Origin: Porodaedalea pini
Taxonomy: Eukaryota > Basidiomycota > Agaricomycetes > Hymenochaetales > Hymenochaetaceae
Direction: 5' to 3'
Assembly: GCA_002794775.1 (NCBI GenBank)
Contig: NBAY01000066.1
Coordinates: 162,031-226,030 of the forward strand
DNA length: 64,000 bases
Shown here: in pieces, positions 5,838 to 52,170 of the stretch
Layout of the letters: each line of letters starts with the position of its first letter
Position numbering within the stretch: position 1 is the stretch's first letter
Made by a program: the position numbers and the translations under genes
The notes under the pieces: model-generated
Seen by the model: the letters and a program-made list of their open reading frames with translations, nothing else
What the model was told of the DNA's origin: nothing
Databases searched by the model: none

Positions 5838-6120
5838 CTTCCTTTCTTCTCTCTTTCTCCTCTCTTTCTCTTTCTCTTTCTCCTCTCCTTCTGCTTCTCT
5901 TTTTCTCTTTCTTTTCCTTTTCCTTTTCCTTTTCCTTTTCCTTTTCCTTTTCCTTTTCCTTTTCCTTTTCCTTTTCTCTTTTCTCTTTCTCTCTCTTTCT
6001 CTTTCTTTCTCTTTCTTTCTCTTTCTCTCTTTCTCTTTCTTTTTCTTTCTCTCTTTCTCTTTCTTTTTCTTTCTCTCTTTCTCTTTTTCTCTTTCTCCTC
6101 TCTCTTTCCCTTCTCTCTCT
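5838..6120 (+). repeat. Polypyrimidine low-complexity tract
   Basis: About 280 bases consist almost only of C and T. There is an inner block of about ten TTTTCC units (5,911-5,970) and outer CTTT/CTCTTT variants. Frames on both strands stay open only because of the composition (Leu/Phe/Ser on plus, Glu/Lys/Arg on minus), so no protein is called. Mirror-symmetric pyrimidine tracts of this kind can form triplex (H-) DNA. Confidence 0.85.
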
Positions 6121-22418: not shown

Positions 22419-23616
22419 GACTTCAGGCTACCCCTAAAAGTAGGCTAATTCTTACACACAGATAATTAGCCTATTAGGGGTCAGGTTTGGGCGTACCCAA
22501 TTTTCTGGGTGCGAAGTATGAGAAGCTCAAAAAGAATAGTTGATTGTATTTAAATATGCTCCAAGAAACATATCCAGTCCTTAGTTTTGTGGGTGAGGGA
22601 AAAGTTCGGAATGGAGAGTGAAATGAGAGGTGATACAGTTCATGTTTCATGAAACTCAAAACAAATCCAAGAAACACAGAGCAGTTTTGCATGTATTTCC
22701 TCTCCCCCTTCAGAACTTTCCTCTAACTCTGAGATCTAGCACCTGATTACATTTATTGTAGTCATTAAAAGTATTAATATTTATTTTATAGAGCTTCCTG
22801 AGATTTGGAATAAAGCAACAACATGAATATATGCTTTCTCTGAACTTCTAAAAACCATGATTTTTGATGTTTTGCAATTCACCCAGCCCAACCACTGAGG
22901 CTGGAAACTTGTAAATTTACAGAAACATATACATATCCATTCTGGATATGCCCAATATTTTATGTGCCATCAAAGTAAAAAATGGGAACAGGATATACAA
23001 AACACTCAGATTCAGGAGATCTCATGAAGTCACCTCCTTCTCTATTATGAAGTCAGTTCATGTCTGATTGGCTTGAAACCTTGCATACATACATAATGTA
23101 ACACTTACTTCATGACAGAATAGGTGTCAGGCCTTTCAGAATATATTTTACTTTTATGTATGCTTCTGGAGGCCTGGTACTGCATGTCAAGATTACTGTT
23201 GTATTTATGACTCCATAAAAAAATGTGTTGAATGTGTGATTCTTGGATATGCTAGAGATACATACATAATAAAACAATTCCATATTTTTTTGTATTTTTA
23301 AACGCGTCTGTAGAATTGTTTTGAGGCCAACAGCTGAGACTTTCGAGATGTCCAAAAGACTTAGAATGCTTTGATTGCTTGTTTAAGATGTGTTGATTGG
23401 CCAAATCAGGCAACACAACTAACATGTTGTCATTGTTCGTGTCATTTCATCTTCACCATCAACAACAAGCTCAGGTGTCCAACTAGCCACACACTCAAGG
23501 TAAGCACAAAAAAAAATCATAAAACTTATCTAAATATACTAATAATTACTTTTCAGCATTTTTTTTGCTTGCCTGAAGGGACAGAACACAATGAGCTCAC
23601 CAAGACACCACCAGCC

Positions 23617-23985
23617 ATGAAGTGTCAACATCACTGACCTGGTGATGGGCCAGCAAAAGATAATCAACATCGACAATGAGCATTGTTACTGCATTTTCCA
23701 TGGCAAGAAGATGTCCCAGGTGTCCCCAGCGACTTGCTCAGTGATGAGTTCAGAGGCTATGTCTTCTGCATCTCTGGTGGAAACAATGAGCAGGACTTCC
23801 CAATAAAGCAGGGTGTACTCATTCCTAATTGCTTGCCTTCTCCTTTCTGCTGGTCACTCTTGCTACCATCTCTGCTGCACTGGTGAGAAAGTGCAAGCCA
23901 GTCCATGGCTGCATCATCGGTCACAATGTTGCTGTCCTCTCTCTCATCATTGTCAGGCAGGGAGGGACTAGTGACATCTACTGAA
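23617..23985 (+). pseudogene. Ribosomal protein S6 (eS6) 5' fragment, CpG-eroded copy
   Basis: After the ATG at 23,617 the sequence reads MK then, after a frameshift, NITDLVMGQQKIINID. This corresponds to the eS6 N-terminus ([21 protein letters not shown]). It continues FHGKKMSQ and, in another frame, [27 protein letters not shown] (eS6: [27 protein letters not shown]), then the GRGHSCY-like and VRGCI..SLIIVRQGG segments. eS6 is a small-subunit protein. The match ends after the VRQGG segment, about half of eS6. A GT...AG intron precedes the start codon (about 23,499-23,556). Relative to the arm copies at 36,602 and 34,687, most CpGs are mutated. Confidence 0.88.
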
Positions 23986-24119
23986 ACCATCGAGCAGTTC
24001 AACTTTCCTCACCCTGTTCACCTGGGATGCATTCCTCACCCCTTCCTTCTGCCCTCGCCAATGTTCCACATGCCTCAACATTGATATCAGCCATTTTCCC
24101 ATCTGCATTTCTCACTGTG

Positions 24120-25040
24120 CACTTTGGTGAATGTGATGCAACCATTGTGTCTGAGAAGGATCTTGTTCTAATCAAAACATTCACAGTGACCTCTTCTCAC
24201 ACATCAACTCCACCTGTCCTTTGACACTCACAGATGCTCATCAATGCCCAGAGCCAGAGAGCCCACCACAGCAAATATGGCCACTGTTCATGCCCTGTGC
24301 CATCCCCACCCCCATCCGCATCAGCATTTGATATCATCATTGAGTGCCAGCTCGAACCACTCACCCTTCTGGCACGTGCACCACGCAACGTATGCCCTAC
24401 CTCCACCTGCAAAATTGTCTTCTGCATCTGCTGCTGCCACAGCATCTACCTTGAGTTCTGTAAGCATCCCCCTTCTTTCCCCCTGATCTCTGATACTTGA
24501 GTGATGAGCAGCTGTTGATCAGTGTCTTTTTCTCTATCGTATTTTTTTCCTCTGACCGCACCAAAAACATTTGACAAAAAAACAGACATTGGCAGTCCCA
24601 CATGCACACCACTCGCACCACCCCATGCCAGCAGCACCCCCACCAGCAGTTGACACTTACTATGGGCATGAAGACACCAGCAAGCTCTGTGCATGCTTCA
24701 TCAGCCATACCTTCAACTGTCCTGAGATCCTTCCTCCATCATCCTCCACCTCTTCCACATCATCCTTGACCACAGTCATCTTGCCTGCCCCCCACTACTG
24801 CAATGGCAGGATCAAGAGGGGCACCAGTGATACCGAATATGCTTGTGCACTTTGTTGCATACATGCTGCATCGCACTCACCTTGCTGTTCACACATGAGA
24901 TGTAGTGTCCTGCAGTTGGTGCTCTGCTACATCAGGGTGGTGCAGGGGAAGGTGACGGGGTGAGCCAGAGTTGGATAAGAGGGAAGGTGAGGTGTCTCTC
25001 TCGTCAAAGGCAAATACCTCTTCAGACACATCCAACTCCT
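24120..25040 (+). pseudogene. Pho80/PCL-type cyclin fragment, CpG-eroded copy
   Basis: Shares with the arm copies the segment reading VSEKDLVLIKTF (about 24,150), the block CSVLQLVLCYIRVVQ (about 24,900) and the block around 25,020-25,060. Between these lies extra DNA absent from the arms. It reads YYGHEDTSKLCACFISHTFNCPE (about 24,660-24,725) and, in another frame, LVHFVAYMLHRTHLAVHTRD (about 24,845-24,900). These look like the region before and at the start of the first cyclin-fold helix of basidiomycete PCL cyclins. PCL cyclins activate a Pho85-type kinase. Multiple frameshifts make it non-functional. It preserves more of the cyclin than the arms do, so the arms probably carry an internal deletion. 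Confidence 0.65.
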
Positions 25041-26169: not shown

Positions 26170-26892
26170 GACAGCATCTACAACATACAGCACCTGCTGT
26201 GGCCTCACAAAGAGACCTCGGTATTCCACGTTCGACACGTCCGACACTGACGGCGACGTGCCACGGAAACGCTTCTTGCGGTCAATGCTGAGCTGCTTCC
26301 CCTCGCACTTCGTGCCCTTCCAGCCACTAATAACGCTAGTTCTTAGTTATTCGTCAAATCAACGCGTTGCCGGCGGGTCATGCATTCGTCGTTGCCCCAT
26401 TCCGATGCCAAAGTCCCGACATCGAAGTAGCACACGCCACCCCACGAGCCGTCATTCCACTGGCGGCCCTCGAGCTGATCGTCTGCCCAAGCATTGCCCA
26501 CGGACACCTCGACACCGACCCAGGGCCCGCTCTCACCCTCACCCTCGCCGATATAACGGGCAGACGCACGGAACCGCTTCCACTTTGAAGTAATGATACG
26601 TAGAATGCCGATGTCCAATGTAGCGCCACGGGGTTGCAGCATGACCGTCTCGCCTGCAGACGCCGTCTCCCCCGCAGGCACTCGATTGAGGGTAATGGTG
26701 TCATTCGAGTCCTTGTGCCGAGAATTGTAATTGATCCGTTGTCACTCGATCGCAGAGATCTGTCATTCGCGATGATGACATCCGCCCGCCCTTTCCCCTT
26801 CCCCTTCCCTTTAATCGTCAATGTACTGCCTGTATTGGGAGGATCTTCAGGGTCAATATTTTCCTTAGATGGCATTTTTCGCAATGGCAAAG
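26170..26892 (-). pseudogene. CAP-Gly-domain gene fragment
   Basis: The minus strand from 26,892 opens with KMPSKENIDPEDPPNTGS, a possible authentic N-terminus (ATG at about 26,872). A frameshift near 26,700 passes into VMLQPRGATLDIGILRII. The CAP-Gly fold follows: RYIGEGEGESGPWVGVEVSVG, then GRQWNDGSWGGVCYFDVG (about 26,560-26,420). After a stop and a frameshift it ends with YRGLFVRPQQVLYVVDAV (about 26,225-26,170). The elements GxWVGVE, NDGSxGGVxYF and GLFVRPxQV define CAP-Gly domains, which bind the C-terminal EEY/F tails of tubulin and EB1-type partners. The gene has a nonsense codon and frameshifts. It is in the same orientation as the neighbouring RPB1 and PRP8 fragments and abuts RPB1 without spacer. 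Confidence 0.8.
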
Positions 26893-28244
26893 CTTTCCGC
26901 GATACGGCCAGCAACGTAGTTCATCGTAAGTTTCCTGTCAAGCATCTTCGAGCAATCGAGCTCAAGATGAAGTAGCCATGGCGACTGAAGATGAAGACCC
27001 GACTCAATTTCCTCGTCGGAGATGGCGAAGAATGCATCAACAAACTCCTTATCCTCCTCAATGATCTTCGTACTTGAATCAGGATCGTAGTAGATCTCGA
27101 CCGCCGCTGTAACGGTACGCAATGATGTGTACACAAGTTCTGTTTGCACCGACTTGGCCCTCGTGTCGACACCAGCAATTTCTGGATCTAGGTACACGGA
27201 GTCTTGATATTCATGGCGACGTTGATGATTTCTTTAAGACGCGGCACACGGAGCGTGATGTTTTTACTCGAAACACCAGCGTAATGGATGGTATTTAGTG
27301 TCATCTGCGTCGCCGGCTCACCGATCGACTGGGCAGCGAGTGTGCCGCACATCTCGCCCGGATGAGCGACCGACTGGTTGAACTTTGTCTCCACCTCGGC
27401 CAAGACCCAGTCAAACGCTTCTCTGTTGAGATGGAACTCCTCTAGGACTGGACGCGTGGCAAAAGTCGCTCGAAGGTACATGCGGAATGCAACAGAAACG
27501 TTCTCGGCAGCCGCCTTTATTAAAAGATCATCGCCGCGCACAACGATGAGGCGGTCTGCCAGTTGCTGCACCTGCTCAATGATGTAAACCGGCTCCAGAT
27601 CGCTCGGTTTTCTGCGGTCGATATGGAAAATCTAAGTTGCGTTCTGCACGATGCGGTTCAGGTTGACAGGAAGATAGTGGGTAGTGGAACTGTCACGGCC
27701 CGGGAAAATGAATTCACGAGGCAATTTATGATCCTCATGAAGACGGTCATATTCCTCATCGAGTTTTTGCTGGAGCTCGAGGGATGAGTCATCGATACCG
27801 ACTTGCAAAACACCAGGAAGGAATCCACCCTTCGGGTCAGTGACGTCGACCCGAAAGCGATGTTCGAACTCGCGATCATTGATACCAAACGTTTTGATCA
27901 TTTGCCGTTCAATAAAAGCACCGTCCATACCATCCTCGCCATACACGAATTGGATCAGGTCACCCAGTGAGTTTCGTACAGTCCCGTCGTAGCAGACAGC
28001 CACGTCTTCGAGTGCCTTTACAAGTCGACACTGAATGTAACCAGTCTCGGCCGTCTTGACAGCGGTATCGATCAAACTTTCGCGACTAGCCATAACGTGG
28101 AAGAAATACTCTTGCGGAGTTAATCCACGAAGATACGAGTTCTCAACGAAACCGCGCGCCTCTGGACTGAAGTCATCCTTCGTAAAGTGAGGTAGTGTGC
28201 GATGCCTGAAGCCAAACGAGATTCACTTCCCTTCAACGGCTAGC
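26893..28244 (-). pseudogene. RNA polymerase II largest subunit (RPB1) internal fragment
   Basis: The minus strand reads RPB1 almost continuously. It starts [46 protein letters not shown] (28,235-28,110), then [43 protein letters not shown]. After [11 protein letters not shown] comes one nonsense codon, then [14 protein letters not shown]. It continues [25 protein letters not shown], the conserved trigger-loop neighbourhood, and NIKTP, has a small deletion/frameshift near 27,205, and ends YVAGRIAESF at 26,895. Identity to RPB1 is very high, so the copy is recent. Defects seen are two nonsense codons (one a likely CGA to TGA) and one frameshift. RPB1 is the catalytic subunit making mRNA; both ends and the CTD are missing here, so it is a captured fragment. 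Confidence 0.93.
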
Positions 28245-30068
28245 ATCTCTCGTTGATTATACCCAATAATGTTGTTGTTTGTTGGATCCGGATTCGCGTT
28301 GAGGTAACGTTGTATAAGGTCACGTGATCCCTCGGCGGTGAAGCGAGATAAAACATGCAAACGATCAAATCAACGAGAATAGAGACGGACTGGATGGCGT
28401 GTCTCGGTCGCAGAATCACGGTACTGCAGGGAATTGTTGGGCAGTTGTGGGAGACCTGCCATTTCACTTGCGCGTTGCAAGCCGAGGATGAGAAGATCGA
28501 GAACAAGATCATAGTATTGGAAGACAAAGGCAGAGAACTGCAGACCGCGGATCATCCCGTATGTGTTCGTATGTGCCATATCTTTGTAGGTGAGAACACA
28601 GTTATTATTCGCTGTGATATAGTCCGCAAGATTATGGTCGAGAATAAGACGAAGCAGACGGTTGAGAAGGGTCAGGTCAATCTTTTCGTAGATTCGACAG
28701 TACGGTTTCCATCATCACTACGCATTCGCCCTCTTTGTCTCCCAGATGTCCGTAAAGTTATTGATACCCTGGCACCACTTGTACACCAGAAGGGGAGGAG
28801 GTTCGGTGTCCGCACTTGTCAGCCTCAAAGAATAAGAACTGGTCAAAATATGCTTCTGTAATCTTCTCAACGGGTTCGATGTCGTAGCAAGGGATGAGCT
28901 TGTCATATGTGTCGAAGAACCCAATGTCTGCCTCTTTGAAGGCCTGCTGAGTGAGCAAGAGACGCTTGATCCTAGACAGACCTGCACGCGAATCAATTAG
29001 CTACACTCTACGACCAATTAGAAAAAAAATATACATTCGTGTGGGTTGTCATACGCCTGCTCAATGAGAGCAAGCTCCTCACGCTGAGATTGGTTAAGAC
29101 GACCTTTGACGCTGTGCGCCTCTTTCAACTTCTCAAGAGCCAACACGAGCAACTTCGTGTCATGCTTGTACGAAAGGGGACTGCATGGAAACATCAATGA
29201 GAATTACTTAAAGACATAGTTAATTGAATCTTACGGGAATGGGATGGGTGCAATTTCCGACTCTCAAGCCAGTGGACCGTCAATGTGTAGATCGCAACGG
29301 CCTCCTCAGCACTAACGTAAGGACCATCTTTGAGGTAAGCATGCTGACGCTCCTGCTCAACTTTCAAGTACAGTCGAGTAAGACGCCCTAAGTTCTTCTT
29401 GACCACAGCCTTGTCGACAATCGCACCGCGCCTGACACGCTCGCGAATGTAGTGCGCAACCGAGCACCACCAGTCCGCCTTGCTCTTGATGTACCGCAGG
29501 ATGATGTTCTCGATTGCAGTCGGCATGCCCGGGACCTTCCATGGAGCTGTAGAATAACGCTTAGTACGCAAAGTCCAGATTCAACCAAACGACGTACTGT
29601 TTGCCTTCCAGCAGTGCCACGCTTCCGACAAGTCCTGCAAGATAGTCTTCGCCTTGTTCTGCTTGATCGACTCCGGCATCATATCAAGAATATCGTGCAT
29701 CACGGCAGTGCGTAATTCCAAGTCATAGTGCGATTCGACACGCTGCTTCGTGACCGGCTTTGCGATGCCCTTGCTGCTGAGACCCTCGAACTGACGCGCA
29801 AGCAAGTTTCCGAGCCAGTTCTCAAGCAGTGGTACAATTCCACGCATGAAGAAGAGCCACACTCGCCAGCCTGGAGCCCCAAACCCACAGCCTGGGCCCT
29901 TACCAACAGGTCCTGTATTGAAGCGATAGTAGATTAGATGATTGAGATCTTTGCACGTCCGGACCTGACGCACAAGTTTGTACTTGTAACGGTACATCCC
30001 GGTGAGCGCGCCGATATGTGCGAAAATATACTGCAATGCATCCGCCAGTTGGAAGGCATCCACATTAG
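28245..30068 (-). pseudogene. PRP8 (U5 snRNP splicing factor) fragment with retained introns
   Basis: From about 30,068 the minus strand reads [19 protein letters not shown], then [19 protein letters not shown] and [11 protein letters not shown], and continues through [13 protein letters not shown]. The order of PRP8 is kept: [79 protein letters not shown], and [22 protein letters not shown] at about 28,250. Introns are still present, for example 29,595-29,548 (GTACGTC...CTACAG), 29,233-29,184 (GTAAG...TGCAG) and one ending near 28,980 (GTGCAG). PRP8 is the core spliceosome scaffold; this is a middle piece of a ~2,300-residue protein. The start is within ~30 bp of the nested foldback insertion and the end joins RPB1 in frame. 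Confidence 0.93.
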
Positions 30069-30077
30069 AGCTCTTTC

Positions 30078-30142
30078 GCAAATCATTCCGGGCCCACAAC
30101 ACGGCAGGAAAATCCGGGGTTTTCCATGAGGAAGGAGTATAT
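30078..30142. mobile_element. Left remnant of outer ~0.8 kb palindromic element
   Basis: CACGGCAGGAAAATCC at 30,100 is the inverted partner of GGATTTTCCTGCTGTG at 48,654-48,669. GCAAATCATTCC occurs directly at 30,078-30,089 and 48,669-48,680, a candidate target duplication, although ten extra bases separate it from the left terminus. The element was then split at GAGTATAT by the 10.75 kb foldback and at GTAAG by a gypsy element. Its body is 40,891-41,564 and its right end 48,578-48,669. Confidence 0.7.
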
Positions 30143-30479
30143 CACTTCAGGCTACCCCTCTGAGCAGACCAAGTAGGTCTATTCATACACACAACTAATT
30201 GACCATTTAGGTATTGAGCCTAGGCATGCCCAATCCGCTGGGCACTCCCAGTGGGTGCGGGTTGGGTGTGCCCAATTTTTTTTACTGTGGGAAAGTTGGG
30301 TGCACCCAGATCATTTGGGCACTCCCAACTGGGCCTGCCCAGTTTTTGGGCACACCCAGTGGGAGTGCCCTGGGAGTGCCCTGGGAGTGCCCAGATATGT
30401 CACTGTCACTGACTGTCTGGGGGACTTTTGGGTGCACCCAGTTTCATTTTTTGCTAGAAATTCTGGGATCATCACAAAT

Positions 30480-31540
30480 GCTGTAATTTTTAGTTTTAGA
30501 CCCTAAACCTTGGTGTATTTGTTACTATTTAGACTATGAAAAATTGACTGCATGAGTTGACCCTTGCTGTGAGCTATGTTAGGGTTGGTAATGATCTAGG
30601 ATAGAGATTGGTATCATTTTATCTATGATTATGACTGTAATTTATAGCTATATCCTACTGTTGAGCTCAGATCATCATGGTATATAGTACAAAAGGCTCA
30701 TGTGACAATCAAAATATGCAAAATGCAGAAAATATATGGAATATATGAGAGACTTATGGTATATGTTGTTCAAAATTATAGATAGACTTTACCATATAAC
30801 ATTCAAGACAAAGAATTGAAACAATAAAACAAATTATGTTTGACCTGATGAACTGAAGGAAACAGATAGTGGATATGTACAAGTAAACTAGATACTTGTA
30901 CTGTAGAAATTAAGCAAATAATGATAAGAAAAAAGGATAGAATGAAGAACCAGCTCTTATCAAATCAAGAACTCAGCTGACTAGCCTTCTTGCAGCAATG
31001 ATCAAGCTCATCATTCTGACAGTATATGCTTGTATCACTCTAGATAATAAACAGAGAGGCTATGCAAGGGTTGAATAGGGTTCAAGCAGGAACTCAATAC
31101 CAAGATGGCAGTGCTTGAACCATAAGTTCCAACTAAACTGTGCTCCACTCCTTCTGGAAACTGTGCAGTCTGCCATTCTGATCAACAGTGTGTCAAATGA
31201 CATCTTCCCTACAACATGAGGCCCATCATCTCAGTGCCACTGGTACATATTATGCATCAACATGAACCAATTCATGTCTGCAAACCTATTGGATCCATTT
31301 GTGCCTCACTGGGGTAAACCCTATCACTGTACAGCTGCCAGAATATCTGGCTGATTGCCTGTAGCTGGCACATGTCCCTCCATTCAGTGCATGTTTCATC
31401 TTCTCGTTCTGGCAGCCCACACTCACATCTGTCCCACCAAATATGACTAAAGAATTTTCAAGAAGTATACAGGTGTGATCCAACTGTCTGACCTGCAAAA
31501 GACTATCTGACTACTGCACAATGTGGATGATCCTATTGTT
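30480..31540. other. AT-rich non-coding backbone, left arm
   Basis: About 1 kb of AT-rich, CpG-poor DNA with no frame over 70 codons. It is preceded at 30,225-30,475 by irregular TGGGCACTCCCA/GGGTGCACCCA motifs. It is mirrored in the right arm at 39,493-40,553. Confidence 0.6.
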
Positions 31541-31733
31541 TGGGAGCCCCCAACTGGGAGTGCCCAATTATCTGGGAGCCCCCAACTGGGAGCCCCCAAT
31601 TATCTGGGAGCCCCCAACTGGGAGCCCCCAATTATTTGGGAGCCCCCAACTAGGAGCCCCCAATTATTTGGGAGGCCCCAACTGGGAGCACCCAATTATT
31701 TGGGAGGCCCCAACTGGGAGCCTCCAATTATTT

Positions 31734-32085
31734 GGGAGTGCCCAATTGGGAACACCCAATAATTTGGGAGTGCCCAATTGGGAACACCCAATAATTTGGG
31801 AGTGCCCAATTGGGAACACCCAATAATTTGGGAGTGCCCAATTGGGAACACCCAATAATTTGGGAGTGCCCAATTGGGAACACCCAATAATTTGGGAGTG
31901 CCCAATTGGGAACACCCAATAATTTGGGAGTGCCCAATTGGGAACACCCAATAATTTGGGAGTGCCCAATTGGGAACACCCAATAATTTGGGAGTGCCCA
32001 ATTGGGAACACCCAATAATTTGGGAGTGCCCAATTGGGAACACCCAATAATTTGGGAGTGCCCAATTGGGAACACCCAATAATTT
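31734..32085. repeat. 32-bp tandem array, 11 copies (left arm)
   Basis: Eleven perfect or near-perfect head-to-tail copies of a 32-bp unit with core GGGAGTGCCCAATTGGGAAC followed by ACCCAATAATTT. Each unit is itself partly palindromic (CCCAATTGGG). Preceding DNA (31,543-31,733) holds diverged relatives (GGGAGCCCCCAACTGGGAGC). Because 32 is not a multiple of three, all frames stay open over the array, giving false proteins. Only three copies remain in the right arm. Confidence 0.93.
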
Positions 32086-32129
32086 GGGAGTGCCCAGTTG
32101 GGAGTGCCCAGGGAGTGCCCAATATTTGA

Positions 32130-32797
32130 AAATGCCCAGTTGGGTCTCTTTTTTATTCCTGCCCAGGAATCTTTTTTATTTTATTTTTGAAATAGAAATC
32201 ATTATGTCATGAAAATTAGAATGTGTCTAGAATTGAAGCCTTGGTGATTCTACAGAGAATTTCTTCATCCTCACCTGTTGCCTCCAGTTTTGCAAGTGTG
32301 GCACCAGACTGGCCCTCGGAGATCTCCTATGATGAAAGTTTTGATATGATGTATTGTAAGATGGATGCAACTGTCTTACTCTCCACTGGTGATACACAAC
32401 ACTTACTCAGATCAAAATATCCTTCTGTGTATAACAAATGAATGACTGAGACAGATACAACAGATACAACAAGAGACAGACCCTTCTCCTTGTCCACATG
32501 CAGGATGACAACAATCTCTTTCCTTCTGACACGGATCAACCTTTGAATCAAATGAGTTCACCTGCAAGAAAGTTCCAAGAATAGAATCATCCCTTCAATG
32601 TTGTCACATTCAAGCTGCATACATCATGAATGACAGTCAGTATTAAGTTGCAATGGCCTCTGACCCAATGCTCAAGCCTGAGTTGGACAAATAGTTTGAA
32701 TCTGTACTCCATGCGGTACTCCATACACTATTGGTACTGTTATTGAAATTGTAGATAATAATAGCTGCATGATGCTGCACTCAGCATCTTGAGCATT
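32130..32797. other. CpG-poor backbone, left arm
   Basis: No gene seen. AT-rich with almost no CpG, ending where the CpG-richer duplicated cyclin-tail units start. Mirrored at 38,492-39,159. Confidence 0.5.
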
Positions 32798-33573
32798 GAT
32801 TCACCAAGCAAGAGTGGCAAGTACAAAAAGCACAGTGTTGGCTCTTTGAGTAGGACAGGCGTCGGGTCAGTCAACAATGATGTCCTTGACGTAAAGCGGA
32901 AAAAAGTAATGTTCATTGTGCACTGAGCGCTGCGTGCTAATGATCATGAGAGGTGGACCTGCAAACAAGAACGGCAATGATCCTGGGGGATCAATAGCAG
33001 GGCGGCATACTTTGCACGGCTGCACCATCTGGCAGCATACCAGCATGCCTGAGCTCTGTTCGCAAACCTTGCCTTCATCTGCGTACGGCCGAATTCCGGA
33101 CTGTTTGCATCGGGCAAGGGTGGACTCAGGAAGTGCTTCGCGTCGCGCGCTGCAGATTGTTGGCAACAAACCAAACGCGATCGTTGATTCACCAAGTGAG
33201 AGTGGCGAGTACGACAGGCATAGTGTCGATTTTTTGAGCGGAACGGGCATCGGTCAGACGACAATGGTGTCTGTGACGCAAGCATGGAAGAAAGGAATGT
33301 TTGCTGTGCACTGAGAGCCGCAATGACCGCGAGAGGTGGAGCAACAAACGAGAACGGCAACGATCCTGGGGATCGATAGTGGGGCAGCACGCTCCGCACG
33401 GCCGCATCACCTGGCAGCGTCGCAGCACGTCTGAGGTACTCCGTTTGCCATCCCTGCCTTCGTCTGCGTGCGGCCAGACTTCAGACTTGCGCCTGCATCT
33501 GACAAGGGCGGACTCGGGAAGTGCCTCGCGTTGTGCACTGCAGAAACCGGAGACGATCCAAATGCGATCGTAC
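32798..33573 (-). repeat. 388-bp tandem duplication of cyclin-tail DNA, left arm
   Basis: Two similar units start at 32,798 and 33,186, both beginning GATTCACCAAG. They share blocks such as GAGAGTGGCGAGTAC/GCAAGAGTGGCAAGTAC and the GATCCTGGGG stretch. The inner unit (33,186-33,573) keeps CpGs, while the outer has lost part of them. On the minus strand they follow directly from the cyclin fragment and read LGESTIAFGLLP- and KSEGTIAFGSSP-type segments, suiting a repeated low-complexity C-terminal tail. Confidence 0.7.
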
Positions 33574-34164
33574 CCTCGCTTTTCGCGTGTTGCATGATGC
33601 CCGAGTTCTCTCCCCATGGTGGCGCCGCGCTCTTGACGATCCAGAGACGCCACCCAAGCGCATCGCCCAGTGCACGTTCGCAGTGTCCAACCTCCCGCGG
33701 TAGGAGACCGGAGAGCTTTTCCCATGCTCGATTCGAATAGCATCGATCCTGTAAGAATTTAAATACCAGAATGAGTGCGGCGAGGAGAGTGCGGCGAGGG
33801 AAGAGGTGGCAGCGGTGTGAGCGGGTTTGCCGGAATCTTACGACGCTCGTCGTTAGACTGCCTTTGAATCTGCATCTGTTGAGTTAATGGAAGCGAAGCA
33901 TCCATCGGGAGGACTGTCGACACACACGATGCGACCTGTTCGACATCGGTTCCGTTGGAAGACCGCAGAGGTTGGATGTGTCCAAAGAGGTATTCGCCTG
34001 ACTCCCGTGCCTCTCCTCTCCTCCACGAGCTCCGACGCTTCCTCCCGCACCACTTCGATGTAGCAGAGCGCCGACTGCAGGACGCTGCATCTCGTGCGTG
34101 AACGGCGGAGAACACCCTGTGCGAATGTTTTGATCGGAACGAGATCCTTCTCGGACACAACGAT
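33574..34164 (-). pseudogene. Pho80/PCL-type cyclin fragment, left arm
   Basis: Inverted copy of the right-arm fragment (37,125-37,715). The minus strand holds [29 protein letters not shown], the first cyclin helices, then a lower-similarity stretch, then FKFLQDRCYSNRAWEKLSGL and PREVGHCERALGDALGWRLW, the later helices of the fold. Frame changes between the blocks mean no intact product. Confidence 0.8.
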
Positions 34165-34313
34165 TGCGTCGCGTTCGCCGAAGTGCTCGATGAGAAAGAC
34201 GGATAGGAAAACGGCTGACGTCGATGTTGAAGCGTGTGGAGTGTCGGCGGGGCAGAAGGAAGGGGCGAGGAATGCGTCGTAGGTGAACAGGGCGAGGGAA
34301 GTTGAACCGCTCG

Positions 34314-34687
34314 ACGATTTCGGTAGATGTCGCCAGTCCCTCCCTGCCTGACAATGACGAGAGAGAGAACGGCGACGTCGCGACCGATGATGCAGCCACG
34401 GACCGGCTTGCACTTTCTCGCCGGTGCGGCAGAGACGGTAGCAAGAGTGACCAGCAGAAAGGAGAAGGCGAACGGTTGGGAATGGGTACACCCTGCTTCA
34501 TCGGGAAGTCCTGCTCGTCGTTTCCGCCAGAGAAGCGAAAGACGTAGCCTCTGAACTCATCACCGAGCGAGTCACCAGGGACGCCTGGGACATCTTCTTG
34601 CCGTGGAAGATGCGGTAACGACGCTCATCGTCGATGTCGATCGTCTTTTGCTGGCCCATCGCCGGGTCAGTGATGTCAAAACTTCAT
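34314..34687 (-). pseudogene. Ribosomal protein S6 (eS6) fragment, left arm
   Basis: Inverted copy of 36,602-36,975. Read on the minus strand from the ATG at 34,687: MKF, a one-base insertion, then [28 protein letters not shown], a frameshift, and [19 protein letters not shown]. It lacks the C-terminal half and is not translatable as S6. A GT...AG intron of about 60 bases lies upstream, in the leader. Confidence 0.9.
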
Positions 34688-34929
34688 GGCCGGTGGCGTC
34701 TTGCAGAGCTCGTCGTGTTCTGCCCCTTCAGGCAAGCAAAAAAAAATGCTGAAAAGTAATATTTAGTGTATTCAAATAGTTTTCATGAATTTGTTTTTGC
34801 TTACCTTGAGTGTGTGGCCGGTGGGACACCTGAGCTCGTTGTTGAAGGTGAAGACGAAACGACACGAACAACGACGACGCGTCGGTTGTATTGCCTGATT
34901 TGGCCGATCGACGCGTCTCAAACAAGTAA

Positions 34930-35485
34930 TCAAAGCATTCCGTGATCTTCGGATATCTTGAAGGTCTCAGCTGTCGGCCTCAAAACATCTCTACGGACGC
35001 GTTTAAAAATACAAAAAAATATGGAATAGTTTTATTATGTATTTATCTCTAGAATAGCCAAGAACTACGCGTCCAACGCGTTTTTTTATGGTGTCATGAA
35101 TACAACAGTAATCCTCACATGTAGCACTAGGCCTCCAGAGGCATACACCAAAGTAAAATATGTTCTGAAAGGCCTGACACCTATTCTGTCATGAAGTAAG
35201 TATTACACTATGTATGTATGCAAGGTTTCAAGCCAATCAGACAAGAATTGACTTCATAATAGAGAAGGAGGTGACTTCATGAGATCTCCTGAATCTGAGT
35301 GTTTTGCATATCCTGTTCCCATTTTTTACTTTGATGGAGCATAAAATATTGGGCATATCCATAATAGATAGTTCTATGTTTCTGTAAATTTACAAGTTTC
35401 CAGCCTCAGTGGTTGGAGCTGGGTGAATTGCACAACATCGAAAATCATGGGTTTAAGAAGTTCAGAGAAAGTATATATTCATGTT
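34930..35485. other. AT-rich inner arm, left
   Basis: No gene. Contains ACGCGT-rich flanks (around 35,066-35,085) and then AT-rich DNA shared with 22,830-23,370 and with the right arm (35,804-36,359). Inner arm boundary at about 35,485. Confidence 0.6.
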
Positions 35486-35803
35486 GTTGCTTTATTCCAA
35501 ACCTCAGGAACTCTATAAAATAGATATTAGTACTTTACATGACTACAATAAATGTAATCAGGTGCTAGATCTCAGAGTTAGAGGAAAGTTCTGAAGGGGG
35601 AGAGGAAATACATGCAAAACTGCTCTGTGTTTCTTGGATTTGTGTCGAGTTTCATGAAACATGAACTGTATCACCTCTCATTTCACTCCCCATTCCGAAC
35701 TTTTCCCTCACCCACAAAACTAAGGACTGGATATTTTTCTTGGAACATACTTAAATACAATAAACTAATTTTGTTGAGCTTCTCATACTTTGAACCAACC
35801 AAA
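35486..35803. other. Central spacer of the giant foldback
   Basis: About 318 bp not repeated in inverted form within the element. Its reverse complement matches about 22,490-22,830 in the eroded single-arm relative. The spacer therefore represents the original element sequence that lay beside one arm before the arm was duplicated as an inverted copy. The short frames here are not considered genes. Confidence 0.8.
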
Positions 35804-36601
35804 AACATGAATATATACTTTCTCTGAACTTCTTAAACCCATGATTTTCGATGTTGTGCAATTCACCCAGCTCCAACCACTGAGGCTGGAAACTTGTAAA
35901 TTTACAGAAACATAGAACTATCTATTATGGATATGCCCAATATTTTATGCTCCATCAAAGTAAAAAATGGGAACAGGATATGCAAAACACTCAGATTCAG
36001 GAGATCTCATGAAGTCACCTCCTTCTCTATTATGAAGTCAATTCTTGTCTGATTGGCTTGAAACCTTGCATACATACATAGTGTAATACTTACTTCATGA
36101 CAGAATAGGTGTCAGGCCTTTCAGAACATATTTTACTTTGGTGTATGCCTCTGGAGGCCTAGTGCTACATGTGAGGATTACTGTTGTATTCATGACACCA
36201 TAAAAAAACGCGTTGGACGCGTAGTTCTTGGCTATTCTAGAGATAAATACATAATAAAACTATTCCATATTTTTTTGTATTTTTAAACGCGTCCGTAGAG
36301 ATGTTTTGAGGCCGACAGCTGAGACCTTCAAGATATCCGAAGATCACGGAATGCTTTGATTACTTGTTTGAGACGCGTCGATCGGCCAAATCAGGCAATA
36401 CAACCGACGCGTCGTCGTTGTTCGTGTCGTTTCGTCTTCACCTTCAACAACGAGCTCAGGTGTCCCACCGGCCACACACTCAAGGTAAGCAAAAACAAAT
36501 TCATGAAAACTATTTGAATACACTAAATATTACTTTTCAGCATTTTTTTTTGCTTGCCTGAAGGGGCAGAACACGACGAGCTCTGCAAGACGCCACCGGC
36601 C

Positions 36602-36975
36602 ATGAAGTTTTGACATCACTGACCCGGCGATGGGCCAGCAAAAGACGATCGACATCGACGATGAGCGTCGTTACCGCATCTTCCACGGCAAGAAGATGTC
36701 CCAGGCGTCCCTGGTGACTCGCTCGGTGATGAGTTCAGAGGCTACGTCTTTCGCTTCTCTGGCGGAAACGACGAGCAGGACTTCCCGATGAAGCAGGGTG
36801 TACCCATTCCCAACCGTTCGCCTTCTCCTTTCTGCTGGTCACTCTTGCTACCGTCTCTGCCGCACCGGCGAGAAAGTGCAAGCCGGTCCGTGGCTGCATC
36901 ATCGGTCGCGACGTCGCCGTTCTCTCTCTCGTCATTGTCAGGCAGGGAGGGACTGGCGACATCTACCGAAATCGT
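36602..36975 (+). pseudogene. Ribosomal protein S6 (eS6) fragment, right arm
   Basis: The ATG at 36,602 in a GCCATGAAG context gives MKF. One extra T then shifts to [20 protein letters not shown], closely matching the eS6 N-terminus. FHGKKMSQ follows, then in a new frame [29 protein letters not shown], then [20 protein letters not shown] and [22 protein letters not shown]. The similarity to eS6 stops there, about half-way. eS6 is a 40S subunit protein and target of TOR signalling. A leader intron (GTAAGC at about 36,485 to TTTTCAG at 36,540) is retained. It keeps CpGs that the 23,617 copy has lost. Confidence 0.92.
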
Positions 36976-37124
36976 CGAGCGGTTCAACTTCCCTCGCCCT
37001 GTTCACCTACGACGCATTCCTCGCCCCTTCCTTCTGCCCCGCCGACACTCCACACGCTTCAACATCGACGTCAGCCGTTTTCCTATCCGTCTTTCTCATC
37101 GAGCACTTCGGCGAACGCGACGCA

Positions 37125-37715
37125 ATCGTTGTGTCCGAGAAGGATCTCGTTCCGATCAAAACATTCGCACAGGGTGTTCTCCGCCGTTCACGCACGAGAT
37201 GCAGCGTCCTGCAGTCGGCGCTCTGCTACATCGAAGTGGTGCGGGAGGAAGCGTCGGAGCTCGTGGAGGAGAGGAGAGGCACGGGAGTCAGGCGAATACC
37301 TCTTTGGACACATCCAACCTCTGCGGTCTTCCAACGGAACCGATGTCGAACAGGTCGCATCGTGTGTGTCGACAGTCCTCCCGATGGATGCTTCGCTTCC
37401 ATTAACTCAACAGATGCAGATTCAAAGGCAGTCTAACGACGAGCGTCGTAAGATTCCGGCAAACCCGCTCACACCGCTGCCACCTCTTCCCTCGCCGCAC
37501 TCTCCTCGCCGCACTCATTCTGGTATTTAAATTCTTACAGGATCGATGCTATTCGAATCGAGCATGGGAAAAGCTCTCCGGTCTCCTACCGCGGGAGGTT
37601 GGACACTGCGAACGTGCACTGGGCGATGCGCTTGGGTGGCGTCTCTGGATCGTCAAGAGCGCGGCGCCACCATGGGGAGAGAACTCGGGCATCATGCAAC
37701 ACGCGAAAAGCGAGG
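37125..37715 (+). pseudogene. Pho80/PCL-type cyclin fragment, right arm
   Basis: [19 protein letters not shown], then [20 protein letters not shown] (37,130-37,255), corresponds to the first cyclin-fold helices of PCL-type cyclins. FKFLQDRCYSNRAWEKLSGL (37,524-37,583) and PREVGHCERALGDALGWRLW (37,587-37,650) correspond to helices 3-5, with the typical (F)LQDRxYSNxAWxxLSGL and LGWRLW patterns. The part between (37,300-37,520) is a variable loop with LTPLPPLPSPH. At least two frame changes prevent an intact product. PCL cyclins act with Pho85-type kinases. The extra ~650 bp in the 24.1-25.0 kb relative suggests an internal deletion in the arms. Confidence 0.82.
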
Positions 37716-38491
37716 GTACGATCGCATTTGGATCGTCTCCGGTTTCTGCAGTGCACAACGCGAGGCACTTCCCGAGTCCGCCCTTGTCAGATGCAGGCGC
37801 AAGTCTGAAGTCTGGCCGCACGCAGACGAAGGCAGGGATGGCAAACGGAGTACCTCAGACGTGCTGCGACGCTGCCAGGTGATGCGGCCGTGCGGAGCGT
37901 GCTGCCCCACTATCGATCCCCAGGATCGTTGCCGTTCTCGTTTGTTGCTCCACCTCTCGCGGTCATTGCGGCTCTCAGTGCACAGCAAACATTCCTTTCT
38001 TCCATGCTTGCGTCACAGACACCATTGTCGTCTGACCGATGCCCGTTCCGCTCAAAAAATCGACACTATGCCTGTCGTACTCGCCACTCTCACTTGGTGA
38101 ATCAACGATCGCGTTTGGTTTGTTGCCAACAATCTGCAGCGCGCGACGCGAAGCACTTCCTGAGTCCACCCTTGCCCGATGCAAACAGTCCGGAATTCGG
38201 CCGTACGCAGATGAAGGCAAGGTTTGCGAACAGAGCTCAGGCATGCTGGTATGCTGCCAGATGGTGCAGCCGTGCAAAGTATGCCGCCCTGCTATTGATC
38301 CCCCAGGATCATTGCCGTTCTTGTTTGCAGGTCCACCTCTCATGATCATTAGCACGCAGCGCTCAGTGCACAATGAACATTACTTTTTTCCGCTTTACGT
38401 CAAGGACATCATTGTTGACTGACCCGACGCCTGTCCTACTCAAAGAGCCAACACTGTGCTTTTTGTACTTGCCACTCTTGCTTGGTGAATC
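37716..38491 (+). repeat. 388-bp tandem duplication of cyclin-tail DNA, right arm
   Basis: Mirror of 32,798-33,573. Units are 37,716-38,103 and 38,104-38,491, both following the cyclin fragment on the plus strand. The outer unit is poorer in CpG than the inner one. Confidence 0.7.
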
Positions 38492-39203
38492 AATGCTCAA
38501 GATGCTGAGTGCAGCATCATGCAGCTATTATTATCTACAATTTCAATAACAGTACCAATAGTGTATGGAGTACCGCATGGAGTACAGATTCAAACTATTT
38601 GTCCAACTCAGGCTTGAGCATTGGGTCAGAGGCCATTGCAACTTAATACTGACTGTCATTCATGATGTATGCAGCTTGAATGTGACAACATTGAAGGGAT
38701 GATTCTATTCTTGGAACTTTCTTGCAGGTGAACTCATTTGATTCAAAGGTTGATCCGTGTCAGAAGGAAAGAGATTGTTGTCATCCTGCATGTGGACAAG
38801 GAGAAGGGTCTGTCTCTTGTTGTATCTGTTGTATCTGTCTCAGTCATTCATTTGTTATACACAGAAGGATATTTTGATCTGAGTAAGTGTTGTGTATCAC
38901 CAGTGGAGAGTAAGACAGTTGCATCCATCTTACAATACATCATATCAAAACTTTCATCATAGGAGATCTCCGAGGGCCAGTCTGGTGCCACACTTGCAAA
39001 ACTGGAGGCAACAGGTGAGGATGAAGAAATTCTCTGTAGAATCACCAAGGCTTCAATTCTAGACACATTCTAATTTTCATGACATAATGATTTCTATTTC
39101 AAAAATAAAATAAAAAAGATTCCTGGGCAGGAATAAAAAAGAGACCCAACTGGGCATTTTCAAATATTGGGCACTCCCTGGGCACTCCCAACTGGGCACT
39201 CCC

Positions 39204-39299
39204 AAATTATTGGGTGTTCCCAATTGGGCACTCCCAAATTATTGGGTGTTCCCAATTGGGCACTCCCAAATTATTGGGTGTTCCCAATTGGGCACTCCC
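39204..39299. repeat. 32-bp tandem array, 3 copies (right arm)
   Basis: The same 32-bp unit as in 31,734-32,085, inverted, but only three copies. The difference of 256 bp between the arms equals exactly eight units, so contraction or expansion happened after the arms formed. Confidence 0.93.
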
Positions 39300-39492
39300 A
39301 AATAATTGGAGGCTCCCAGTTGGGGCCTCCCAAATAATTGGGTGCTCCCAGTTGGGGCCTCCCAAATAATTGGGGGCTCCTAGTTGGGGGCTCCCAAATA
39401 ATTGGGGGCTCCCAGTTGGGGGCTCCCAGATAATTGGGGGCTCCCAGTTGGGGGCTCCCAGATAATTGGGCACTCCCAGTTGGGGGCTCCCA

Positions 39493-40553
39493 AACAATAG
39501 GATCATCCACATTGTGCAGTAGTCAGATAGTCTTTTGCAGGTCAGACAGTTGGATCACACCTGTATACTTCTTGAAAATTCTTTAGTCATATTTGGTGGG
39601 ACAGATGTGAGTGTGGGCTGCCAGAACGAGAAGATGAAACATGCACTGAATGGAGGGACATGTGCCAGCTACAGGCAATCAGCCAGATATTCTGGCAGCT
39701 GTACAGTGATAGGGTTTACCCCAGTGAGGCACAAATGGATCCAATAGGTTTGCAGACATGAATTGGTTCATGTTGATGCATAATATGTACCAGTGGCACT
39801 GAGATGATGGGCCTCATGTTGTAGGGAAGATGTCATTTGACACACTGTTGATCAGAATGGCAGACTGCACAGTTTCCAGAAGGAGTGGAGCACAGTTTAG
39901 TTGGAACTTATGGTTCAAGCACTGCCATCTTGGTATTGAGTTCCTGCTTGAACCCTATTCAACCCTTGCATAGCCTCTCTGTTTATTATCTAGAGTGATA
40001 CAAGCATATACTGTCAGAATGATGAGCTTGATCATTGCTGCAAGAAGGCTAGTCAGCTGAGTTCTTGATTTGATAAGAGCTGGTTCTTCATTCTATCCTT
40101 TTTTCTTATCATTATTTGCTTAATTTCTACAGTACAAGTATCTAGTTTACTTGTACATATCCACTATCTGTTTCCTTCAGTTCATCAGGTCAAACATAAT
40201 TTGTTTTATTGTTTCAATTCTTTGTCTTGAATGTTATATGGTAAAGTCTATCTATAATTTTGAACAACATATACCATAAGTCTCTCATATATTCCATATA
40301 TTTTCTGCATTTTGCATATTTTGATTGTCACATGAGCCTTTTGTACTATATACCATGATGATCTGAGCTCAACAGTAGGATATAGCTATAAATTACAGTC
40401 ATAATCATAGATAAAATGATACCAATCTCTATCCTAGATCATTACCAACCCTAACATAGCTCACAGCAAGGGTCAACTCATGCAGTCAATTTTTCATAGT
40501 CTAAATAGTAACAAATACACCAAGGTTTAGGGTCTAAAACTAAAAATTACAGC
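39493..40553. other. AT-rich non-coding backbone, right arm
   Basis: Mirror of 30,480-31,540; no gene recognised. Confidence 0.6.
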
Positions 40554-40890
40554 ATTTGTGATGATCCCAGAATTTCTAGCAAAAAATGAAACTGGGTGCA
40601 CCCAAAAGTCCCCCAGACAGTCAGTGACAGTGACATATCTGGGCACTCCCAGGGCACTCCCAGGGCACTCCCACTGGGTGTGCCCAAAAACTGGGCAGGC
40701 CCAGTTGGGAGTGCCCAAATGATCTGGGTGCACCCAACTTTCCCACAGTAAAAAAAATTGGGCACACCCAACCCGCACCCACTGGGAGTGCCCAGCGGAT
40801 TGGGCATGCCTAGGCTCAATACCTAAATGGTCAATTAGTTGTGTGTACGAATAGACCTACTTGGTCTGTTCAGAGGGGTAGCCTGAAGTG

Positions 40891-41564
40891 GAGTATATCA
40901 TGGAGTGTTTAGTGGGGCTCATATAATTTTGGCAGGAAAAGCCTTACATGGATTGTGTATTCTCAATCAATCAAAATTTGCAGAAATTATGCTTTATGTA
41001 TCTAGAATTGATGGCCATCAAGAAAAGTATTTCTGAACTCAGTGTCTACAATCTACTTTGCCAAAGGACAAGATAATTCTGGGCTTCTGAATCTCCATTG
41101 TCTGTAAGAAAGAGAATGGTGGTTATTAGATTTAGAATCTGTAAAGTCTTGGACACAAAGGAAGGAGGCTCATTGGATTTAAAATCCACATAGACTCCTT
41201 GCATGAATGGAAGGTCTCTCTCAGATTTGGTATCTATGCTGAGTTGATTATATGCTAATCATGTGATCCATAGATACCAAATCTGAGAGAGATCTTCCAT
41301 TCATGCAAGGAGTCTATGTGGATTTTAAATCCAATGAGCCTCCTTCCTTTGTGTCCAAGACTTTACAGATTCTAAATCTAATAACCACCATTCTCTTTCT
41401 TACAGACAATGGAGATTCAGAAGCCCAGAATTATCTTGTCCTTTGGCAAAGTAGATTGTAGACACTGAGTTCAGAAATACTTTTCTTGATGGCCATCAAT
41501 TCTAGATACATAAAGCATAATTTCTGCAAATTTTGATTGATTGAGAATACACAATCCATGTAAG
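40891..41564. mobile_element. Body of the outer palindromic element
   Basis: Nearly perfect inverted arms of about 300 bp. The left arm runs from 40,943 (TTACATGGATTGTG) to about 41,243 and the right arm from about 41,262 to 41,564 (CACAATCCATGTAAG), with a short ~20-bp loop. The flanking arm DNA (GGGGCTCATATAATTTTGGC at about 40,916) is mirrored beyond the gypsy insertion at 48,595-48,615. Joined with 30,100-30,142 and 48,583-48,669, the element is about 0.8 kb, a long palindrome without coding capacity. It is transposase-dependent by inference. Confidence 0.85.
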
Positions 41565-49984: not shown

Positions 49985-52170
49985 CATTTTTGTGATGTAC
50001 CAGCTCTGGAGCTCCCGGCTTCACCAGGAACTCCACTGGCCATCAATCTGAGTTTTTTAGGCATTGCTTAATCTGAGTTTTTTTTGGTTCTTCAGACTTA
50101 ATTAATGCAATTTCTCATCTTAAAAGCTATACCTATTCAAAGTTCCTTGCTGGCCATTAGTCTAAGCTCTTAGAACAATGCTTCATCTTAGTTCACATGA
50201 TTCTTCAATTGCAAAACTATATATCTCACATACATATGCTTGAAAGCAATCTGAATTTTTATTATATGATATTCTATTTACAACAAAACCTCACTAAGTA
50301 CAATATTGGTTGTTGAGAACTTAAAGATAGAATAAGTCTCCTTCAATGGAGAGACATAGTGCATAATACCTGCTTCTCATATCTTCATTTAAAATAGAAA
50401 AAAATATTCTTTACACAATATAGATATGTTAGGACACCTTATATAATATTTATAAAAGGCTATAGGTATAGGCCTGCTAGAGTATTCTTACTACTTCTAA
50501 CATGCTGTTGACTTCCTATACATCATGACTTAACTCTGATGTATTGAGTGTCTGACATTCCAAGACACAAACTCTGAAACACAACTATGTAGCTGTACCA
50601 CAATTATGAGGAGTCCAAGTCTGAGACTCAGTGGCAGCTTCAGACCCTTGGAGTCTGGCACATTATGTTCAGTTCATGCCATTTTTACATTCTCTTTACT
50701 GCCCAACTCATCCAAAGCTTATATGCACTTATACTGAGTTGTGCTATGTATACTCTGGCATGAGCCAGGCTAATAGTTTACATGTTCTGAGAGTAATTTT
50801 CAATGGACTCCAACTGGTTGGTTTTCTACTGAAATTTATTTTATAATACACATGGAGAAGATAGCAGAATATTTTTCTAATTGACTTATTTTATTCAGCA
50901 TTTTTCCTAACTTTTTCATATGAGGAATAAGTTGTTTGAGCTCAAAGTATAAAATTGATTGTAGATGATTTGCATGCTGCTGCTTTGAAGTTACTGCTTC
51001 TAGCCATCAAAATTTCAAGAGAAGAGCAATAAATAATTAAACTATTTTTCCCCTAATTTTTATGAATTTTTTTCATATTTTTTTTTTTCAATTTTTTTAT
51101 AGCCATTTTCATAAGTCCTGCAACACGTGCATGTCACGTGAAGTGAGCCATGTCAGAGCCAAAGTGTCAAAAAATTAGAATGAATGCCTATTTTCTCTGT
51201 GAATTCTGCACAGAACCTACTCATTAAGTACTCAAAAAAAAGGCATGGTTCTCAGGAGAAGAAATATGTAAAATAGGGAGCAATAAATTGACTGTGTAGG
51301 CAGGTAGAGATCAAACAAGTGCAGCTGGTCTGTTCTCTCACCCATTTCCACTGAGATTCAAAAATTATGGCTCCCCTACATCTACCTATAAAATTCTTTC
51401 CTGTGTCTGTAAATTAAGTATATGACTATATCAACATCTCCTGAAAGTTTGAAGCCAATCCATTCAGTATTCATGGTCCAGCAGCAAGATTTGTATTCTA
51501 CACTGCAAGATCTGTTGTGAGAAAAGGAGGGTGGAAAGAGCTTGAAGTGGAACACAAATCTTGCTGCTGGACCATGAATACTGAATGGATTGGCTTCAAA
51601 CTTTCAGGAGATGTTGATATAGTCATATACTTAATTTACAGACACAGGAAAGAATTTTATAGGTAGATGTAGGGGAGCCATAATTTTTGAATCTCAGTGG
51701 AAATGGGTGAGAGAACAGACCAGCTGCACTTGTTTGATCTCTACCTGCCTACACAGTCAATTTATTGCTCCCTATTTTACATATTTCTTCTCCTGAGAAC
51801 CATGCCTTTTTTTTGAGTACTTAATGAGCAGGTTCTGTGTAGAATTCACAGAGAAAATAGACATTCATTCTAATTTTTTGACACTTTGGCTCTGATGTGG
51901 CTCACTTCATGTGACATGCATGTGTTGCAGGACTTATGAAAAAGGCTGTAATAGGGGAAATGAGTTGATTGAGCCTACACAGTGGTCTGCTCATGGATGT
52001 GTGCCCATAGGCAGACATCATGTGATGATCTGCATGCTGCCGCTTTGAGCCATCAAAATCTTCGGAGCTGACCAGAGCATGTGATGACTGAAGAAGGAAA
52101 AAAGAAGCATCAAAACATTAAAAGTCCGAATTTAGTCAGCATGTGGCTGTGTCAAAAGTAGGGGGTTGCA
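49985..52170. mobile_element. 2.2 kb insert with large foldback
   Basis: Interrupts pol between KPQYP (integrase end, 52,185) and PPPPPEIIDN (49,975). AT-rich with no recognised gene. It holds a palindrome with arms 51,099-51,494 and 51,554-51,952 separated by about 59 bp. A short direct repeat (GATGAT.TGCATGCTGC) lies outside the arms at about 50,965 and 52,023. Exact ends and target duplication were not resolved. Confidence 0.75.

Follow-up and report, generated by a model that had tools for sequence, protein, structure and literature searches.

A mobile giant palindrome: a probable KDZ foldback element with mirrored host gene fragments in Porodaedalea pini

The stretch of DNA considered here, the window, comprises 64,000 nucleotides of the basidiomycete Porodaedalea pini (Hymenochaetales; contig NBAY01000066.1, here C66, positions 162031-226030), and was compared with the assembled genome of 53.3 Mb in 201 contigs. 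It holds an element of 10.75 kb (30143-40890; C66:192173-202920), a near-perfect palindrome with 5-kb arms, which probably belongs to the KDZ (Kyakuja-Dileera-Zisupton) superfamily as a non-autonomous foldback, that is, a mobile giant palindrome whose arms appear to be homogenised by ongoing arm-to-arm recombination. The left arm (30143-35485, plus strand, 5343 bp) and the right arm (35804-40890, minus strand, 5087 bp) make up 97% of the element; one end reads CACTTCAGGCTACCCC and the other its reverse complement, and an exact duplication of the target site, GAGTATAT, stands on both sides (30135-30142 and 40891-40898). Two substitutions set the right arm apart from the left (positions 22 and 43, counted from the end), and so does a net length difference of 256 bp, equal to eight units of a 32-bp minisatellite that counts 17.7 units in the left arm (31539-32103) and 9.8 in the right (39185-39498). 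Foldback elements are recognised by long inverted arms that form most of their length, by tandem repeats inside the arms and by a target duplication at the flanks, all of which are present; an earlier note on this DNA had named the element a foldback from its arms, matching termini and 8-bp duplication, and that description holds. The asymmetric centre (35486-35803, plus strand) has the 318 bp given in the same note, but it is not plainly non-repeated, as was said there: it aligns with its own reverse complement and has the look of an old, decayed inverted repeat, whereas the adjoining arms are about 100% identical. The outer ~230 bp of the left arm match the ends of 10 other compared copies at 93-98%, and an Rfam scan of the window gave nothing above gathering scores.

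Each arm carries a fragment of the gene for ribosomal protein S6e, at 34337-34716 on the minus strand (84.6% identical over 389 bp to the host gene locus on C81) and at 36573-36947 on the plus strand (84.8% over 382 bp); the call, already made in the earlier note, is borne out by a Pfam score of 38.0 bits against a cut-off of 26. Among the named records listed, the closest to this S6e protein is from Phellinidium pouzarii, also of the Hymenochaetales, with 96% identity over 83% of the query. A cyclin-like open reading frame (ORF) is likewise found in both arms, at 33407-33883 (minus strand) and 37406-37882 (plus strand), with the same translation. It had been named a PCL-cyclin fragment, but the family call is weak, since the scanned right-arm ORF stays below the Pfam cut-off (E 0.016, 16.1 against 21 bits). 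It matches, at 78% identity, a portion of a 632-aa ORF from another place in the genome, where it has many relatives (150 of 393 candidates were scored). Also in the window, at 22514-24185, there is a lone relic with 86-88% identity to the inner arm of the element, which includes an S6e fragment and has no partner arm.

The element belongs to a family dispersed over the genome. A search of the whole genome with a 33-base pattern of the ends, at up to three mismatches and with the reversed pattern as control, gives 57 matches against none for the control, and these resolve into 23 facing pairs and 11 unpaired ends. Exact target duplications flank 18 of the 23 paired copies; they measure 8 bp in eight copies and 7 bp in ten, the lengths expected of KDZ elements (8 bp; 7 bp in Kyakuja); one more pair has a 6-bp duplication and two have 7 bp with one mismatch. 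Two unpaired ends, on contigs C85 and C63, have the flank AACAATG in common; a break between contigs has probably divided a single copy here. The joined flanks of eight insertions were used as queries, and among the 40 candidates scored out of 1068 there were matches spanning the empty junction for seven of the eight: C29 at 100%, C35 at 99%, C19 at 98% and C69 at 97%, all of which may be the other allele; C28 at 87-94% in several places and C3 at 86-91% in many; and the window element at 96-97% over ~145 bp on C1, C10 and C12. For C57 no match to the joined-flank query was found among the candidates scored. The unpaired right ends at C14:146846 and C54:149323 have 39 of 40 flank bases in common, perhaps one insertion duplicated with a larger repeat. 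At C24:51800-59900, of which one arm was fetched, there is a second end subfamily, with the same arms and centre and a terminal repeat only ~76% identical that still begins with CACTTCAGG.

The ends also lead to a transposase. A genome search for the KDZ domain (PF18758) gives 77 matches, 76 of them outside the 23 paired copies and exactly one within, at C28:19200-19916, in a copy (C28:3533-25584) with the same ends and the duplication ACTTGTAT. The KDZ ORF of this copy scores 204 bits against a cut-off of 26.6, and an ORF upstream of it matches, by the narrow margin of 28.7 to 26.9 bits, CxC1, a cysteine cluster associated with KDZ transposases. Several of the 77 matches have long open frames, and 705 proteins match the KDZ ORF of C28, with identity of at most 60% for the best among the 120 listed. 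Since the transposase between the same ends is KDZ, the family is placed in that superfamily and not in hAT or P; the window element is regarded as non-autonomous because the profile search finds no KDZ match in it. Genes of the TET/JBP type, which some fungal KDZ elements carry, are represented in the genome by a single match, which stays under the cut-off and lies in none of the 23 paired copies. The earlier note had suggested a hAT or P transposase; this origin is rejected on the strength of the sole transposase found between these ends, although no search aimed at hAT or P was made. Its other expectations fared better: further copies with the same termini and duplications, empty or related empty sites (sought within the same genome) and a transposase gene between the same ends have all been found, and the proposal of a non-autonomous foldback with gene-fragment cargo that moves as one unit agrees with them.

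The cargo of the family is mirrored. A genome search for S6e, in which 150 of 193 candidates were scored so that the counts are a lower bound, gave at least 113 rows that reduce to 108 loci, one of them the complete host gene on C81 and 107 of them fragments. All but seven of the fragments form inverted minus/plus neighbour pairs (100 fragments, 50 pairs), and no same-strand S6e neighbours occur within 15 kb among the 107. The members of a pair are 2.0-2.4 kb apart in 28 cases and 4.26-4.37 kb apart in 17, with other spacings in C162, C59, C3, C50 and C78. The extra spacing, ~2 x 1.07 kb, fits a 1059-bp Hsp90 fragment inserted in both arms, and this fragment was found at at least 40 places (40 of 44 candidates scored). 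These places belong to 20 copies, each of which has the fragment in its two arms, namely the 17 wide-spaced pairs together with C59, C3 and C50, so that all 20 listed carriers are mirrored. In C3 the Hsp90 piece interrupts the S6e fragment, whereas at that place the S6e fragments of the window element, C57, C69 and C29 run on unbroken, as in the host gene; Hsp90 must therefore have been added later, and mirrored. C57 also carries DENND11 fragments and C3 an ACPS fragment, presumably from a fatty acid synthase, and these ORFs recur in both arms. The S6e, Hsp90, ACPS and DENND11 fragments all exceed their Pfam cut-offs, and with the full host S6e gene present on C81 they resemble the cargo of Pack-type elements. 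Another kilobase change behaves in the same way: a 1.3-kb stretch between 390-bp direct repeats is present in C57 and C69 and missing from the window element, and both arms agree in each.

The centre speaks for a single origin. It is present full-length or nearly so, at 94-100% identity, at all 40 scored places (40 of 52 candidates), which include C120 and C168, two records of one insertion, and in 12 of 13 further copies whose middle was fetched, the exception being C25. One palindrome was thus amplified, and it is old, because the inner arms differ by up to 12% between copies that have this centre in common. Repeated independent dimerisation by faulty gap repair, in which each copy would be a new inverted duplication, would also yield near-identical arms, with no need for conversion, and C57, C3, C28, C162 and C25 do have other middles in place of the common centre. 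It cannot easily give the same asymmetric centre at 40 of 40 places, nor a border between arm and centre that falls within a few bases of the same point in seven aligned copies, sharp against identical arms (in C20 the border lies ~43 bp farther inside the centre), and we give it very little credence. Nor does the earlier proposal of a recent inverted dimer, formed from a single-arm element with ready-made cargo, survive: the centre is shared and old, and Hsp90 came later and is in both arms. Separately, C162 has around 3850-4000, near its contig start, a nearly perfect palindrome with almost no spacer, which may have lost its centre or been mis-assembled.

With the common centre used to define arm A and arm B of each copy, the arms can be seen to evolve in concert. 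Across 4708 columns in five copies there are 50 variable sites at which the arms of each copy agree and none that separates A from B, besides six single-arm changes, one mixed site and six gapped columns. Across 653 inner-arm columns in 19 copies, 125 agree, none separates the arms, two disagree (both in C40), 512 are invariant and 14 are gappy. The inner arms of a copy are identical in 18 of the 19; the window element, with two differing sites in ~5.1 kb and none in its inner arms, differs from C29 at 79 of 640 inner-arm sites and at 16 of 317 centre sites. For whole arms of 4-7 kb in eight copies, 1-17 substitutions separate the two arms. If there were no homogenisation, the arms within a copy would differ about as much as copies do, and their near-identity therefore points to continuing homogenisation and not to youth. 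A young family, in which one recent dimer spread too fast for its arms to diverge, would make homogenisation unnecessary and could draw on the 100% junction match of C29; it has next to no chance of being right, and for the 19 compared copies it is refuted by the divergence of up to 12% between copies against the identity of the inner arms within 18 of them. Exchange between copies probably occurs as well, as C29 and C40 differ at 2 of 640 inner-arm sites but at 16 of 314 centre sites.

The agreement of the arms breaks down toward the ends, as recombination-based conversion, which predicts loss of exchange near borders of homology, would have it. In 16 of the 19 copies (C45, C121 and C144 left out, with an end interrupted or not fetched), the terminal 140 bp hold 11 discordant and 9 concerted sites, and bases 141-240 hold 2 and 24 (Fisher test, 7e-4; terminal 140 bp compared with the inner arm, 1e-9). 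Both P values serve as description only, because the 140-bp cut was chosen after the positions of the differences had been seen. Changes after insertion can be followed in C120 and C168, which have the same three end alleles and ~1980 bp of flank with four differences. Three substitutions separate their corresponding arms, at 5872, 1352 and 2423: that at 5872 is specific to C168 and present in both its arms, and that at 1352 falls in the array region, where only the first arm of C168 is covered, and is carried by C120 in both of its arms. The centre is inverted in C168 relative to C120, matching at 315 of 319 positions when flipped and at 175 of 319 directly. These records bear on the notion that copying happens at transposition, with one arm made anew at each jump on the template of the other, by way of a hairpin or snap-back intermediate, so that new copies start with identical arms. 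Such copying would account for arms that are almost identical and for mirrored changes of kilobase size, and the four copies with junction matches of 97-100% may indeed be young; it should, however, equalise the outermost 140 bp and the centre too, both of which are still asymmetric, and it does not explain a substitution that is younger than the split between C120 and C168 and sits in both arms of C168. We consider it improbable.

Recombination between the arms of an inserted copy accounts best for the whole. The KDZ transposase of full-length relatives would move the palindromes as single units, after which the two arms of an element would recombine with each other. Non-crossover conversion would copy point mutations, indels and captured gene fragments from arm to arm, so that every gene capture would end as a mirrored pair, while crossover or template switching would occasionally invert the centre in place. 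Conversion would fade toward the outer ends and stop at the centre, and differences would therefore persist in both places. In the assembled genome, the same ends, the 7-8 bp duplications, the empty or related empty sites, the one copy with a KDZ transposase, the ancestral centre and the concerted arms are all observed, and together they make the proposed KDZ foldback with recombining arms a probable one.

Several facts weigh against it. Two of the 23 paired copies, C14b and C25, have no target duplication; extra stretches of ~6 kb in C69 and C19 and of ~5 kb in C45 are in one arm and not mirrored, and may mark a size limit of mirroring or their own youth. Change 2423 is in a single arm of C120, and 5872 is the only post-insertion change that can be checked in both arms of C168, a contig that ends inside the second arm with single-arm differences near its end and whose inverted centre could reflect a wrong join, should the reads have been shorter than ~6.6 kb. 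The probable exchange between copies seen in C29 and C40 complicates dating. All the data come from an assembly, in which consensus polishing could erase small differences between arms. Six contigs appear to end inside copies, which shows that the assembler struggled here: C63, C85, C162, C168, C38 and, on the evidence of its S6e fragment, C19, of which the last two stop ~1.0 kb past an S6e fragment and thus about at the palindrome centre. It could then be argued that pooled reads make the arms look identical, or that the palindromes come from missed-adapter reads. This has only a slim probability: 18 of the 23 copies have flanks that differ between the two sides together with 7-8 bp duplications, the 50 inverted S6e pairs have no same-strand counterparts, and differences in end sequence and array length between arms are preserved. 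Unequal arms had already been held, in the earlier note, to speak against a simple assembly hairpin, and with flanks that differ and carry duplications such a hairpin is rejected.

The surroundings of the element in the window have features of their own. Adjoining it at 26865-30069, on the minus strand, are head-to-tail fragments of Rpb1 (domains 5-7) and Prp8 (RRM_4, PROCN), which resemble another gene-capturing element or a chimeric pseudogene, and a small repeat beside the Prp8 fragment is the apparent landing site of the palindrome. Two small foldback repeats lie at 40943-41564 (296-nt arms, 100% complementary, 30-nt spacer) and 51097-51951 (405-nt arms, 97%, 45-nt spacer), and palindromes that are nearly perfect may be a general feature of this genome.

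With dozens of copies of a single palindrome at separate places, nature provides a replicated experiment on palindrome recombination; its rate, the length of its tracts, its effects at the ends, how large a mirrored insertion can be, and flips of the centre can all be read in sequence. It is conceivable, if rather unlikely, that the mirror architecture is the way of life of the element, with the arms serving each other as repair template and together as a duplicating trap for gene fragments, the asymmetric centre retained for making the survival of a long palindrome possible, and transcripts that run across this centre folding into kilobase hairpins with fragments of essential genes (S6e, Hsp90), which could feed RNA silencing. 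If so, there would be a class of transposons that evolves by concerted evolution within the element. The family extends foldback elements to the KDZ superfamily and presents gene capture doubled as a mirror image, with possible consequences for the stability of genomes and for hairpin-triggered silencing in fungi. The literature searched, with most subscription journals outside its coverage, yielded no title recognisable as a KDZ foldback family, and no paper on a Kyakuja foldback or on palindromic elements with long terminal inverted repeats (TIRs) and concerted evolution.

Parts of this architecture are known from other systems. Pieces of ordinary host genes also travel in Pack-type elements and in Helitrons that capture genes, but each capture examined here is a mirrored pair. 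In the ampliconic palindromes of the mammalian Y chromosome, gene conversion keeps the arms nearly identical around a unique spacer, as here, but those palindromes do not transpose. Fungal KDZ elements have the same domain and CxC1 cluster, and KDZ1-3 of Cryptococcus combine 8-bp duplications (4-8 bp for KDZ2/3) with TIRs of 139-241 bp, close to the conserved ends of ~230 bp found here (PMC12810828). The CA..TG ends and the 7-bp duplications recall Kyakuja of Laccaria, which is, however, described as having no TIRs (PMC12730594). Those elements are transposase-coding, of 9-11 kb, or TET/JBP families (PMC12810828, PMC12730594), whereas 97% of the window element is taken up by its mirror arms, which carry pieces of host genes, and it has no transposase. 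The Drosophila foldback elements and Galileo likewise have long inverted arms, internal tandem repeats, long forms that are mostly non-autonomous, TIR extension and, as is suspected, recombination among copies; the longest TIRs of Galileo, however, are 1.26 kb and 95.2% identical, against arms of 4-7 kb with 1-17 substitutions in eight copies here, and Galileo belongs to the P superfamily and not to a KDZ family with captured host genes (PMC3573991, PMC4079207). In yeast, homogenised arms together with an inverted spacer have been described as the paired mark that template switching leaves in inverted repeats (PMC8604942), and arms made identical around a flipped spacer are likewise seen here, with the difference that the yeast repeats are short and those of P. 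pini are kilobase arms within mobile elements.

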